Assembly (NCBI GenBank): GCA_016192145.1
Contig: JACPUT010000008.1
Coordinates: 248,001-312,000 of the forward strand
Source: Acidobacteriota bacterium
GTDB taxonomy: Bacteria; Acidobacteriota; Holophagae; Holophagales; Holophagaceae
Length of the DNA stretch: 64,000 nucleotides
Reading direction: 5' to 3'
The notes under the pieces are model-generated. The model was not told the origin of the DNA. It searched no databases and saw only the letters and a program-made list of their open reading frames with translations. How positions within the stretch are numbered: position 1 is the stretch's first letter; each line of letters opens with the position of its first letter. This document shows positions 37,489 to 42,287 of the stretch, piece by piece. The position numbers and the translations under genes were made by a program.

Positions 37489-37574
<86 letters not shown>

Positions 37575-37629
37575 GAGGTTCCAGGCTACCTCAAGGCAGT
37601 CATACTGGGGCAGCACCCTTGGAGGTTGG

Positions 37630-37947
37630 ATGTCCGCGATGCTGTTGCTGCTTTCCGGAATGGTCACCGTGCCCCAGGCACCCCGGAAGGACCTGGCCCT
37701 CTTCTATCGGCGGGCCTGCGCGGAATGCCATGGGGTGGACGGCGGGGCCCGTTCCGGATCCGGACTTCGCCTGGCCGGGCGGAATCTCGCGGACCATCGC
37801 TGGCAGGCCCGGACGACGGATGGGGATATGGTGAGGGCCATTCTCAAGGGAAAGCGTGAAATGCCTGCATTTGGCGCCAATCTGTCGGAAGAGGACGCCA
37901 AGCGCCTCGTCACCGAGATCCTGCGGCCCATGGCCGCCCGAAAATAG
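37630..37947 (+). CDS. Small exported c-type cytochrome, first of three
   Basis: A 105-residue class I cytochrome c. It has a short signal sequence (MSAMLLLLSGMVTVPQ), the haem site CAECHG near residue 35 and a probable axial Met in KREMPAFG. Its C-terminal helix NLSEEDAKRLVTEIL is typical. The ATG at 37630 follows TTGGAGG. It lies 11 bases before a second, related cytochrome gene. Such proteins shuttle electrons in the periplasm. No oxidase or dehydrogenase gene is adjacent, so the partner is unknown. Confidence 0.85.
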   Translation: MSAMLLLLSGMVTVPQAPRKDLALFYRRACAECHGVDGGARSGSGLRLAGRNLADHRWQARTTDGDMVRAILKGKREMPAFGANLSEEDAKRLVTEILRPMAARK

Positions 37948-37958
37948 CAGGAGCGCCC

Positions 37959-38345
37959 ATGCGCACCCCCTTGATCTTCTTGGCCGCCGTCCTTTGGGCG
38001 CTGGCCCCCCTTTCGGCCCAGGCGTCCCCGGGGGCCCCGGGGCAGGCTCCCGGCAAGGATGCCAAGGCGCTCCGCGCCTTTTTCGCGGCTGAGTGCGTGC
38101 GATGCCACGGCGCGGATGGCAGCGCCCTGGGGCCGGATGGGAAGCGGCTCAAGGGGCAGGACTTCACCAACCCGAAGGAGATGGCGGAGAAGCAGGACGC
38201 CAAGCTCGCCAACACGGTGCTGAAGGGCATCTTCTTCGGGAAGGTCATGCCGTCCTTCAAGGGGAAGCTGACGGAGGCGGAGGCCCTGGCCATGGTCACC
38301 GAGGTGGTGCGCAAAGCCGAGAAGGGCAAGGCCATCCAGCCCTGA
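37959..38345 (+). CDS. Small exported c-type cytochrome, second of three
   Basis: A 128-residue class I cytochrome c with a signal peptide (MRTPLIFLAAVLWALAPLSAQA), haem site CVRCHGADGS and axial Met in FGKVMPSFKG. AGGAG precedes the ATG. The stretch VLKGIFFGKVMP is shared nearly exactly with the third cytochrome (ILKGIFFGKVMP) and, more loosely, with the first (ILKGKREMPAF), showing descent by local duplication. Confidence 0.9.
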   Translation: MRTPLIFLAAVLWALAPLSAQASPGAPGQAPGKDAKALRAFFAAECVRCHGADGSALGPDGKRLKGQDFTNPKEMAEKQDAKLANTVLKGIFFGKVMPSFKGKLTEAEALAMVTEVVRKAEKGKAIQP

Positions 38346-38455: not shown

Positions 38456-38893
38456 GTGAAGGCAAGGTCCCTCGGGTGGGGTTGGCTCTTCGGCTTGGCG
38501 CTCGGGGCCCAGACTCCATCCGCCCCGGCCCGCTCCATTGACGAATTGCGGGTGTTTTTCCGGGAGAATTGCGCGCGCTGCCACGGGGCGGATGGATCTG
38601 GCCGGGACGCGGGGGGACGGCGCCTCACGGGCCAGGATTTCTCGGAGTCCCCGAAGGTCAGGCACGCGCGCGCGGCGGAAGCCGCGGGCCATGGCAGTGC
38701 TTCCCGGGAGGTCCGCTCCATGGTGCGCACCATCCTGAAGGGGATCTTCTTCGGAAAGGTGATGCCGGCTTGGAAGGACCAGTTGAGCGAAGCCGAGGCG
38801 GAGCTGTTGCTGAGGGAGGTGGTGATGAAGGCGGAAAAGGGCAAGGTCATCGGCCCGGCCAGCCCAGCCCCCCTGGCGGCCTCCCGGGAGTGA
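38456..38893 (+). CDS. Small exported c-type cytochrome, third of three
   Basis: A 145-residue class I cytochrome c that starts at GTG 38456, with AGGAGG six bases upstream. It has a signal peptide ending near ALGAQ, haem site CARCHGADGS and axial Met in FGKVMPAWKD. It carries an insertion of about 20 residues (SPKVRHARAAEAAGHG) between the haem site and the Met loop compared with the second cytochrome. Its stop lies 25 bases before the helicase start. Confidence 0.88.
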   Translation: MKARSLGWGWLFGLALGAQTPSAPARSIDELRVFFRENCARCHGADGSGRDAGGRRLTGQDFSESPKVRHARAAEAAGHGSASREVRSMVRTILKGIFFGKVMPAWKDQLSEAEAELLLREVVMKAEKGKVIGPASPAPLAASRE

Positions 38894-38918: not shown

Positions 38919-41900
38919 ATGGATTCCCAGCTCGATCATCCCCTCCTCCGGGGCCTGAACCCGCCCCAGCAGCAGGCGGTGAAGCACGTGAAGGGCCCCC
39001 TGCTCATCCTGGCGGGCGCCGGCTCCGGGAAGACCACCGTGATCACGAGGCGCATCGCCTGGCTGGTGGAGGAGGAGGGGGTGAATCCCTCCAGCATCCT
39101 GGCCGTGACCTTCACCAACAAGGCGGCCGAGGAGATGCGGGAGCGCGTTTCCCGCCTCGTCTCGGTGCCCGTGAACCAGCTGTGGGTGAGCACCTTCCAC
39201 AGCTTTTGCACAAGGCTGCTGCGGCGGGAGGGGGACCGCACCCCCGTGGGGAAGTCCTTCGTCATCTTCGATCCCAGCGACCAGAAGAGCCTCATCAAGC
39301 AGGTCCTGGCGGAGCTCAAGCTCTCCGAAAAGCAGTTCCACCCCCGCAAGGTGCTGGAGCACATCAGCGACTGGAAGAACCGCTGCCTCCTGCCCGAGGA
39401 GGCCAAGGACGAAGCCCTGGACGCCTGGAGCCGCAAGGTCCTGGACGCCTACGCCCTCTACCAGAAGGGCCTCACGAACCACCGGGCCTGCGACTTCGAC
39501 GACCTCCTCCTCCACGCGGAGCGCCTGCTGCGCGAGCCCGTGATGCAGGAGGCCTATGCCCAGAAGTTCCGCCACGTGCTCGTGGACGAGTACCAGGACA
39601 CCAACTTCGCCCAGTACAAGCTCGTGCAGCACCTGGCGGGACTGCACAAGAACTTGTGCGTGGTCGGCGATGAGGATCAGTGCCTGATCGCGGGTACGCG
39701 CATCCGCCTGGCCGATGGCCGGGAACGGGCCATCGAGAAGGTGAAGGTCGGCGACCTCGTCCTTTCCTGCCATGGGAGCGGGGATATGCGACCCGCCCCG
39801 GTGACGAGGGTCCATCGACGTGAGGGCCGGAAGCAGGGCGTGGAGATCCGGACGGAATCCGGTCGGAAGGTCGTGAGCACCCCCGACCACACGCACTTCG
39901 CCGGCTATCGTCTCGGCCTCAGCCCCCAGTGGCATTTCGTCTACCTCATGCGGAAGGAGGGGATGGGCTGGAGGCTCGGCACCACCCAAGTCCACACGCG
40001 CGGGCAGGCGAAGCCCGTGGAGGGATTCAAGCAGCGAGCCTTGCAAGAGCACGCGGACGAGCTTTGGGTGGTGGGCGTTCACGGAACGGAAAATGAGGCT
40101 CGGGCCGAAGAGGTGATCCTCTCTCTGCAGCACGGCATTCCCGCCCTGCCGTTCGTGCCCCGGCGGGGTGCCTCATCCAAGGGACTGGTGCACGATGGGA
40201 AAGCCATCGCCCGGGTTTTCCAAGCCCTCGAAGGCGGCGAAGCTGGAGCCAGAACCCTGTTGAGACAGCGTGGGCTCTCCGAAGAGCACCCCCATCACAG
40301 CGCTCAAGGCGCTACCGGGCGGCGGCGCAACCTCGTGCTCACCCTCTGTGGCGATCGCCGAGGGCGCACACCCATGCATCGCATCTCCATGGTCGGCCAG
40401 GACGCTGAGGGGCGCCGGGTCCTGGAAACCATGGGCTATTCGGTCCGAGCCGCGAAGGCGGGCTCCACCAGTTGGCGGTTCGAAACTTGCCGCAAGGACT
40501 TTCAGGAGGTGATGTCCATCGCTGAAAGCATCCAGAAGCGACTGGGGGCGCAGCTCGTCATGAACGCCCGGCTGGGACAGAACGGAGATCGGGCGGAAAG
40601 CAACAGCCTGCCCATGCTTCCGGCCTCCAACGTCCAGCCCGGAATGGTGCTCTTCGACGCTGAAGGCGGCTATGACACCGTGGTGCGGGTGAGCCGCGTG
40701 GCTCTGGAGAAGCCCGTCTTCGATCTCGACATCCCGGGCACTCACAACTTCGTTGCGAATGGGTTGCTCACCCACAACTCCATCTACGGGTGGCGCGGCG
40801 CCGATATCCGCAACATCCTCGACTTCCAACGGGATTTCCCGGGGGCCGTGCAGATCAAGCTGGAGCAGAACTACCGCAGCACCCAATCCATCCTGGATGC
40901 GGCGAGCACGGTCATCGCCAACAACAGCCAGCGCCTGGGCAAGACGCTGTGGACGGACTTGGGCCAGGGCGAGCGGCTCTCCTTCCGTCTGCTGGACGAT
41001 GGCCGCGCCGAGGCCGAACACGTGGCGCGCCGCATCCGGGAGGAACGTGCCGCCGATCCCGAAGGCCGGGTGGCCATCCTCTATCGCGCCAATTGGCAGA
41101 GCCGGCCCCTGGAAGAGGCGCTGCGCGGCGCCAACCTCGCCTACAAGCTCGTGGGCGGCACGAAGTTCTACGAGCGCCAGGAGATCAAGGACCTCATCTC
41201 CTACCTGCGCCTCGGGGCGAACCCCTTCGATCTCACCTCCTTCCGCCGTTCGGTGAACACGCCCAGCCGCGGCATCGGGCCCACGACCCTGGCCAAGATC
41301 GAAGCCGCCATCCCCGAGAACGGCACCCCCATCGAGGGCGTGGCGGCGCTGCTCAAAGAGAAGGCCTTCACGGGTCGCAGCCAGCGGGAGATGCTGCGCT
41401 TCCACGACCTCTTCGCCAAGGCGGAGGGGGAACGCCGAGCCCAACCCCTGTCGGGCTTCATCCGCTGGATGCTCCATGAGAGCGGCCTGCTGCAGGCCCT
41501 GGTGGATGAGGACACCCTGGAGGCCAAGGGTCGCATCGAGAACCTGGAGGAATTCCTGAGCGCCGCCAGCGAGCTGGACGGCCTGGGCTTGGACGGCTTC
41601 CTGGACCGCATCACCCTCATGGCCGATGCGGATGAAGTGGAGCAGGACTCGCGCATCACCATGATGACGATCCACTGCGCCAAGGGGCTGGAGTTCCCCA
41701 CCGTGTTCCTCGTGGGCATGGAGGAGGATGTCTTCCCCAACCGCATGGCCAAGGAAGACGACGGCCTCGAGGAGGAGCGGCGCCTCTTCTACGTGGCCAT
41801 CACACGCGCCCAGCGGAAGCTCTACATGAGCGGCGCCCGGCGCCGCGCCGCCTTCGGCGGGCCGCCGACCCTGGGCATGCCGAGCCGCTTCTTGAAGGAG

Positions 41901-42287
41901 GTGCCCACGGAGGCCCTCGATCAGCCCATCCGCTGGGGCACGGAGATGTTCCAGGCGGGGCAGGGGGCTTGGACCCCCACCCCCGCGCGGGGCGGCGGGG
42001 GCGTCTCCGTGGCCGGTGAACTGAGCCGCATCCGTTCGATGTTCAGCCAAGTGAAGGCCCAGGCCACCTCGGAATCCGGCGAGGAAAGCGTGGAGGCGCC
42101 TCCCCCGCCTGAATGCGCGCCCGGTGATGCCTGGCCCGTGGGCACCCGCGTGCGCAGCCCGCGGTTCGGCCGCGGCGTGATCACCGGCGCCTCGGGACGC
42201 GGCGACATGATCACCTACACCGTGCGCTTCGCCGACAGCGGCGAGAAGCGCATCGTGGCCAAGTACGGGATGCTGGAGAAGGAGTAG
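38919..42287 (+). CDS. UvrD/PcrA-family DNA helicase interrupted by an intein
   Basis: A 1122-residue precursor whose spliced form would be 756 residues, normal for PcrA/UvrD. The helicase translocates 3' to 5' on DNA in repair and replication restart. Visible motifs are AGAGSGKTTVI (Walker A), VDEYQDTN (motif II), then VVGDEDQ broken by the intein before SIYGWRGADI (motif III). These are followed by LEQNYRST (motif IV), MTIHCAKGLEFPTVF (motif V region), FYVAITRAQ (motif VI) and a C-terminal Tudor-like domain (RFGRGVITG ... RFADSGEKRI). The helicase works only after the intein excises itself. The gene is followed by inverted-repeat element H. Confidence 0.95.
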   Translation: MDSQLDHPLLRGLNPPQQQAVKHVKGPLLILAGAGSGKTTVITRRIAWLVEEEGVNPSSILAVTFTNKAAEEMRERVSRLVSVPVNQLWVSTFHSFCTRLLRREGDRTPVGKSFVIFDPSDQKSLIKQVLAELKLSEKQFHPRKVLEHISDWKNRCLLPEEAKDEALDAWSRKVLDAYALYQKGLTNHRACDFDDLLLHAERLLREPVMQEAYAQKFRHVLVDEYQDTNFAQYKLVQHLAGLHKNLCVVGDEDQCLIAGTRIRLADGRERAIEKVKVGDLVLSCHGSGDMRPAPVTRVHRREGRKQGVEIRTESGRKVVSTPDHTHFAGYRLGLSPQWHFVYLMRKEGMGWRLGTTQVHTRGQAKPVEGFKQRALQEHADELWVVGVHGTENEARAEEVILSLQHGIPALPFVPRRGASSKGLVHDGKAIARVFQALEGGEAGARTLLRQRGLSEEHPHHSAQGATGRRRNLVLTLCGDRRGRTPMHRISMVGQDAEGRRVLETMGYSVRAAKAGSTSWRFETCRKDFQEVMSIAESIQKRLGAQLVMNARLGQNGDRAESNSLPMLPASNVQPGMVLFDAEGGYDTVVRVSRVALEKPVFDLDIPGTHNFVANGLLTHNSIYGWRGADIRNILDFQRDFPGAVQIKLEQNYRSTQSILDAASTVIANNSQRLGKTLWTDLGQGERLSFRLLDDGRAEAEHVARRIREERAADPEGRVAILYRANWQSRPLEEALRGANLAYKLVGGTKFYERQEIKDLISYLRLGANPFDLTSFRRSVNTPSRGIGPTTLAKIEAAIPENGTPIEGVAALLKEKAFTGRSQREMLRFHDLFAKAEGERRAQPLSGFIRWMLHESGLLQALVDEDTLEAKGRIENLEEFLSAASELDGLGLDGFLDRITLMADADEVEQDSRITMMTIHCAKGLEFPTVFLVGMEEDVFPNRMAKEDDGLEEERRLFYVAITRAQRKLYMSGARRRAAFGGPPTLGMPSRFLKEVPTEALDQPIRWGTEMFQAGQGAWTPTPARGGGGVSVAGELSRIRSMFSQVKAQATSESGEESVEAPPPPECAPGDAWPVGTRVRSPRFGRGVITGASGRGDMITYTVRFADSGEKRIVAKYGMLEKE
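39681..40778 (+). mobile_element. Intein in helicase motif III (366 residues)
   Basis: The inserted segment runs from Cys255 to Asn620 of the precursor. Splicing block A is CLIAGTRIRLADGRERAIEK. Block B is VVSTPDHTHFA, with the TxxH signature. Block F is VFDLDIPGTHNFVANGLL, and block G is THN followed by Ser as the first residue of the C-extein. All residues for class 1 splicing are present: Cys1, block-B Thr and His, penultimate His, terminal Asn and +1 Ser. About 200 residues between blocks B and F exceed a mini-intein. They include LCGDRRGRTPMHRI and a segment SWRFETCRKDFQEVM, but I see no LAGLIDADG or HNH motif. A homing nuclease is therefore absent, degenerate or of another type. Confidence 0.93.

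Follow-up and report, generated by a model that had tools for sequence, protein, structure and literature searches.

The UvrD/PcrA helicase gene of a 3.8-Mb acidobacterial genome is interrupted by a complete class 1 intein, which is probably mobile and equipped with a homing endonuclease of a divergent, GIY-YIG-like kind, and which probably does not carry a regulatory domain. The gene lies in a stretch of 64,000 nucleotides that was analyzed as a whole (the window), and its nearest relatives are found in the Holophagaceae, including Geothrix fermentans DSM 14018. A whole-genome profile scan yielded a single intein-splicing match, which is the UvrD/PcrA intein. We further consider it probable that this intein belongs to a widespread and unrecognized class with an active, cis-fused GIY-YIG-derived homing endonuclease, in which the active site is altered to Tyr..Arg-x-Gly..Arg..Glu and the bacterial members hold in addition a DNA-recognition domain without recognized relatives.

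Translation of the gene places the insertion point in UvrD/PcrA motif III, exactly between GDEDQ and SIYGWRGAD (Table 1). A preliminary description of this DNA had proposed an intein at 39681-40778 from blocks A, B, F and G, Cys1, TPDH, HN and a +1 Ser, and this is borne out by the translation as well as by intein profiles, with a PF14890 (Intein_splicing) match of 2.3e-12, well over chance. Cys1 and His70 are present in all 86 aligned intein sequences, and the splicing part of an AlphaFold2 model superimposes on the Ssp DnaB mini-intein with a VIA-align Z of 20.5 over 130 residues (rmsd 1.4 Å). Cys1, the TxxH of block B, the His-Asn end, the +1 Ser, the Hint fold and clean empty alleles together identify a class 1 intein. 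It probably removes itself from the helicase; the expected product of 1122 − 366 = 756 amino acids had been predicted correctly and is as long as helicases that naturally have no intein.

Table 1. Features of the intein-containing helicase gene and their positions in the window.
Feature	Position	Strand	Basis
UvrD/PcrA helicase precursor, 1122 aa	38919..42287	+	ORF list; PF00580 5.5e-85, PF13361 2.3e-72
N-extein, C-terminal end VVGDEDQ	38919..39680	+	translation; empty alleles in relatives
Intein, 366 aa	39681..40778	+	translation; starts CLIAGT, last residues LLTHN, then +1 Ser
Hint N-terminal splicing part, residues 1-79, with Cys1 and block B TPDH (67-70)	39681..39917	+	TIGR01445 2.2e-7
GIY-YIG-like nuclease domain, residues 80-166, beta-beta-alpha-beta-alpha	39918..40178	+	AlphaFold2; VIA-align top 14; hhalign
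Tyr88, counterpart of the GIY tyrosine and putative general base	39942..39944	+	86/86; role by analogy with Slx1 Y14 (PMC8599992)
Arg98, at the YIG tyrosine position (RxG, not YxG)	39972..39974	+	Arg in 86/86; hhalign alignment
Arg119, counterpart of the invariant Arg on alpha-1	40035..40037	+	85/86
Glu144, equivalent of the metal-anchoring Glu	40110..40112	+	85/86
Two-helix linker, residues 167-207 (helices 173-182, 186-196)	40179..40301	+	AlphaFold2 secondary structure
Second domain, residues 208-304 (LCGDRRG..HRIS..SWRFET), beta-beta-alpha-beta-beta-alpha	40302..40592	+	AlphaFold2; alignments
Hint C-terminal splicing part, residues 305-366, blocks F and G, terminal His-Asn	40593..40778	+	TIGR01443 1.4e-6, PF14890
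C-extein, first residues SIYGWRGAD with +1 Ser	40779..42287	+	translation; empty alleles

The N-extein was found in 71 of 77 genomes of the same family. Seventeen helicase frames are long (963-1176 amino acids), and most others have about 757-795 amino acids. The comparison with inteinless relatives, which had been proposed earlier, gave both states at one junction: 30 loci could be read across it, eight of them filled (continuing with C...) and 22 empty, running straight from GDEDQ into SIYGWRGAD. Mapped onto an N-extein DNA tree, the presence and absence of the intein require at least 10 changes, compared to a mean of 14.8 after shuffling, but the well-supported branches force only three. 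Such a patchy presence among close relatives would be expected if the element is mobile or often lost.

Blocks B and F had been placed about 200 residues apart; the stretch between them is in fact about 270 residues long, of which about 225 are extra domains. That this stretch contains no recognizable homing nuclease motif proved correct, since searches of Pfam, NCBIfam and PHROGs gave no nuclease profile, and together with PDB sequences these libraries returned only chance matches (PAPS reductase, 0.05-0.15). No HNH family was among the Pfam, NCBIfam and PHROGs matches of the intein with E values up to 10, no Pfam match to LAGLIDADG was found in the insert and no PF14528 match in the genome, and PF01541 and PF10544 did not match the insert even at E 10. 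An AlphaFold2 model of the whole intein, for which the alignment of 86 sequences was used as input, reached a pLDDT of 93.9 and a pTM of 0.91. It consists of the Hint fold, a beta-beta-alpha-beta-alpha domain (80-166), two helices and a second domain of the type beta-beta-alpha-beta-beta-alpha (208-304). Because fold searches with the whole intein were swamped by Hint matches, the nuclease-like domain was folded alone.

Residues 80-206 gave a pLDDT of 92.9 when folded alone, and the domain has strands at 85-92 and 96-103, a helix at 115-122, a strand at 127-134 and a helix at 137-151. Foldseek detected no significant match in the PDB and listed no GIY-YIG chain in its top 50. With VIA-align, 999 PDB chains taken from the Foldseek candidates were re-aligned, and ranks 1 to 14 were all occupied by GIY-YIG nucleases, namely PD-T4-3, Slx1 and the UvrC N-domain, with Z values of 3.2-4.6, which are weak in absolute terms; the first unrelated chains followed at 3.1. 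Each of these Z values is weak when taken singly, but the occupation of all top ranks by one rare family is not a weak result. The predicted order of the secondary structure elements is that of the GIY-YIG core beta1-beta2-alpha1-beta3-alpha2, which is the topology of Slx1 (PMC8599992), and the fold comparison is consistent with this core, although at low Z values. Profile comparison with hhalign against 30 PF01541 members scored 25.65 over 66 columns at a probability of only 51%, compared to at most 18.1 for 150 column shuffles, 10.6 for the reversed profile, 16.9 for LAGLIDADG_3 and at most 13.7 for UvrD windows; nothing was found against T5orf172, a related GIY-YIG family. Among 199 genomes of the phylum the nuclease-like domain occurs solely within the intein. 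The preliminary description had offered a different nuclease type as one guess, and this guess is supported, since residues 80-166 look like a GIY-YIG nuclease that has diverged but has kept its putative active site. It had also held that a standard endonuclease fold would make the intein ordinary; this applies only in part, as the predicted fold is GIY-YIG-like, which is unusual for an intein.

The putative active site is formed by Tyr88, Arg98, Arg119 and Glu144. Tyr88, Arg119 and Glu144 are kept over 86 sequences with identities down to about 25%, and since all four positions lie outside the scan patterns, their conservation was not forced by the search. No weight was given to the invariance of Glu123, Ala125, Asp126 and Trp129, which were required letters of the scan patterns. 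Tyr88 and Arg98 are 10 residues apart, the same spacing as in T. maritima UvrC (Y19/Y29). The tyrosine of the YIG motif is present in none of the 86 sequences, its place being always taken by Arg, and the insert was thus filed as GIY-YIG-like and not as a canonical member. No C-terminal Asn was found; Slx1 likewise does without it (PMC1564403). In Slx1 the GIY tyrosine is the general base, the YIG tyrosine and the invariant Arg hold the phosphate and the Glu anchors the metal (PMC8599992), and the biochemistry of ANKLE1 concurs on Tyr and Glu (PMC10287932). By this analogy nuclease activity is plausible despite Arg98, because the missing Tyr and an Arg can both bind phosphate. The earlier guess of a degenerate nuclease is not supported for the UvrD/PcrA intein copy, in which Tyr, Arg and Glu are all intact. 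The sole exception in the alignment is a phage member on a viral contig (L045, 3252-4235), in which Arg119 is replaced by Pro and Glu144 by Ala; from its sequence, this copy looks like a decayed, natural dead version.

The two-helix linker possibly contacts DNA. In the second domain, which spans 217-297 in its secondary structure elements, lie the segments LCGDRRGRTPMHRI and SWRFETC, which had been pointed out before and are indeed found in the insert, outside the nuclease-like domain. The second domain is present in the long members of the family (about 345-370 amino acids) and missing from the short phage members of about 275-290 amino acids, the SPO1-type inteins. No match was obtained against PDB sequences, and among 99 genomes of the phylum the domain was found solely within the intein. 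That it reads the target DNA is a natural guess. The strands and helices of the second domain follow one another as in a LAGLIDADG half that lacks the first helix; in an hhalign comparison a LAGLIDADG origin gained no profile support (14.8 against a shuffle maximum of 17.2), and it stands as a guess only.

The insert is not confined to the Holophagaceae. In phages, tblastn detected it in 65 records, and the carriers include Bacillus phage SPO1 (gp34.33) and CampHawk, Escherichia phages phi92 and PaulScherrer, and methylases of Streptococcus suis phages. A scan of viral sequences with a single intein sequence found nothing, whereas alignment-based scans succeeded and gave 22 loci in viral contigs and 74 loci in bacterial genomes. 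The latter come, by the names of the submitters, from Acidobacteriota, Pseudomonadota, Actinomycetota, Dormibacterota, Chloroflexota and Nomurabacteria/Patescibacteria, and in nearly all of them UvrD motif III is interrupted at this very point; in one rumen Bacteroidales MAG a family intein lies in a methylase-like protein. Phage copies were also met in a DNA methylase, in a RecB-like protein and in a helicase motif other than motif III, these hosts having been assigned from sequence motifs and partly by inference. A 512-kb viral contig (L039, 3201-4118) has a family member at a helicase motif other than motif III (STVH/C...HN/SVKGAQW). The helicase of Klebsiella phage KP13-16 (L023, 521-4117) seems to hold two inteins, one of LAGLIDADG-like look in the P-loop and one of the GIY-YIG-like family in motif III, and an unannotated frame of the Providencia rettgeri plasmid NZ_CP077319.1 (L018, about 2501-2836) encodes a DNA methylase with a short family member. 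Weak matches in L014-L016 were discarded as chance, their frames being broken or unrelated.

Within the Holophagaceae the identity of the inteins is about 0.60, compared to about 0.73 for the host protein, and between phyla it is about 0.45-0.56 compared to about 0.38-0.47, distant acidimicrobial copies excepted; paralogy among UvrD, PcrA and Rep could depress the host identities. The intein is therefore more alike than its host across phyla and faster-evolving within the family, which suggests transfer after the host genes had parted. Against this, the tree of the intein and that of the host each follow the phyla for the most part. Transfer of the intein across phyla is likely, and its occurrence in phages and several bacterial phyla points to mobile elements of a widespread family that has been overlooked.

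The following mechanism is proposed. After translation the Hint domain would splice by attack of Cys1, cyclization of Asn366 and ligation to the +1 Ser, giving a UvrD of 756 amino acids. The excised or precursor intein would recognize uvrD alleles that have no intein by their strongly conserved motif III coding sequence, presumably through the two-helix linker and the second domain, and the GIY-YIG-like domain would cut this empty site. In this reaction Tyr88 would activate water, Arg119 and Arg98 would hold the phosphate, with Arg98 substituting for the usual second Tyr, and Glu144 would hold the metal. Repair would afterwards copy the intein into the cut allele.

Other explanations of the insert differ in how well they agree with the data. 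A non-cutting relic of a nuclease fold might have been kept for DNA binding or for stabilization of the intein, for example in a maturase-like or a splicing-helper role, and the Arg found throughout in place of the YIG tyrosine would fit this, as would the agreement of intein and host trees mostly by phylum, which is seen with vertically kept elements. We regard such a relic as unlikely, since the deep conservation of Tyr88, Arg119 and Glu144 and the patchy presence among close relatives argue against it, and the nuclease-like domain has a lower dN/dS (0.40) than the splicing parts (0.43 and 0.50), values of which only the ranking can be read because synonymous changes are near saturation. Furthermore, the only copy that lost Arg119 lost Glu144 too, a pattern of decay that is not found in the UvrD/PcrA intein. 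It is also improbable that the domain is a fold of its own, representing a new homing-endonuclease family that resembles GIY-YIG enzymes by convergence: the elements and the catalytic residues come in the same order, the 14 best re-aligned chains are all GIY-YIG and the profile score is clearly over the shuffles, even if convergence would agree with the lack of a sequence match in any library, with a Foldseek top 50 free of GIY-YIG chains, with VIA-align Z values of at most 4.6 and with the Arg at the second Tyr.

The preliminary description had also considered that the insert might regulate splicing in response to redox conditions or DNA damage. Some inteins of repair proteins are known to splice conditionally, which would fit, and Cys223 is present in most long members. 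However, the cysteines hinted at are not strictly conserved, since of the 73 rows with this column 56 have Cys223 and 17 have Phe, Tyr or others in its place. What is conserved makes up an active site of nuclease-like type, and the module also occurs in methylases and helicases of phages, for which a mode of regulation in common with a bacterial UvrD is unlikely; we found no support for a regulator and consider it very improbable. A mobile intein with a GIY-YIG-like homing endonuclease is therefore preferred.

The helicase inteins of SPO1 gp34.33, CampHawk, phi92 and PaulScherrer are likewise inserted after GDxxQ of motif III, share the module VYLM..RxG..R..E and are about 25-33% identical. 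Those of SPO1, CampHawk and PaulScherrer are annotated as inteins (for CampHawk see PMC3868849), and no nuclease type is given in the annotations that were read. Compared with Slx1, the UvrC N-domain, I-TevI and PD-T4-3, the UvrD intein is alike in the predicted beta-beta-alpha-beta-alpha core and in the order of Tyr, Arg and Glu; it differs from GIY-YIG nucleases in having Arg for the YIG Tyr, in that no Asn was found, in being embedded in an intein and in falling under every curated profile cut-off. The LAGLIDADG inteins PI-SceI and TliVMA also have their endonuclease domain between blocks B and F of the Hint domain, whereas the UvrD intein has no LAGLIDADG motif or profile match and a different predicted nuclease fold. 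A case of an HNH intein endonuclease is known as well. Generally, intein endonucleases are of the LAGLIDADG type (PMC5050341), and a survey of 2006 reported GIY-YIG nucleases in group I introns and their absence from inteins (PMC1564403). In the AceL NrdHF split intein a GIY-YIG homing endonuclease is also tied to an intein, but as a separate free gene between the two halves (PMC7891396), whereas it would be fused in the continuous UvrD intein. No subsequent description of an intein with an internal GIY-YIG domain was found in the literature searched, which consisted mostly of papers available without subscription, and priority for a fused GIY-YIG-like intein nuclease cannot be claimed.

If the proposal is true, GIY-YIG enzymes would no longer be missing from inteins, as had been reported, and phage helicase and methylase inteins would be linked with UvrD inteins of several bacterial phyla. 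The fused enzyme would be a new combination and would show that one more nuclease fold was captured by inteins. With Arg where the second Tyr is usual, it would also be a natural active-site variant that tests the GIY-YIG mechanism. The insert of well-known phage inteins such as that of SPO1 would be given an identity, and a whole family would have been missed by profile libraries.

Just upstream of the helicase, three short plus-strand ORFs (37567-37947, 37959-38345 and 38456-38893) contain one CxxCH haem motif each (CAECHG, CVRCHG and CARCHG) and, by these motifs, are likely a tandem of small c-type cytochromes. An open frame of 625 amino acids on the opposite strand (40173-42050) runs across the intein and the C-extein and is probably a shadow of the high G+C coding sequence. 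The only tRNA of the window, which is also its only Rfam match, is a tRNA-Leu (anticodon TAA) at 37489-37574 on the minus strand.
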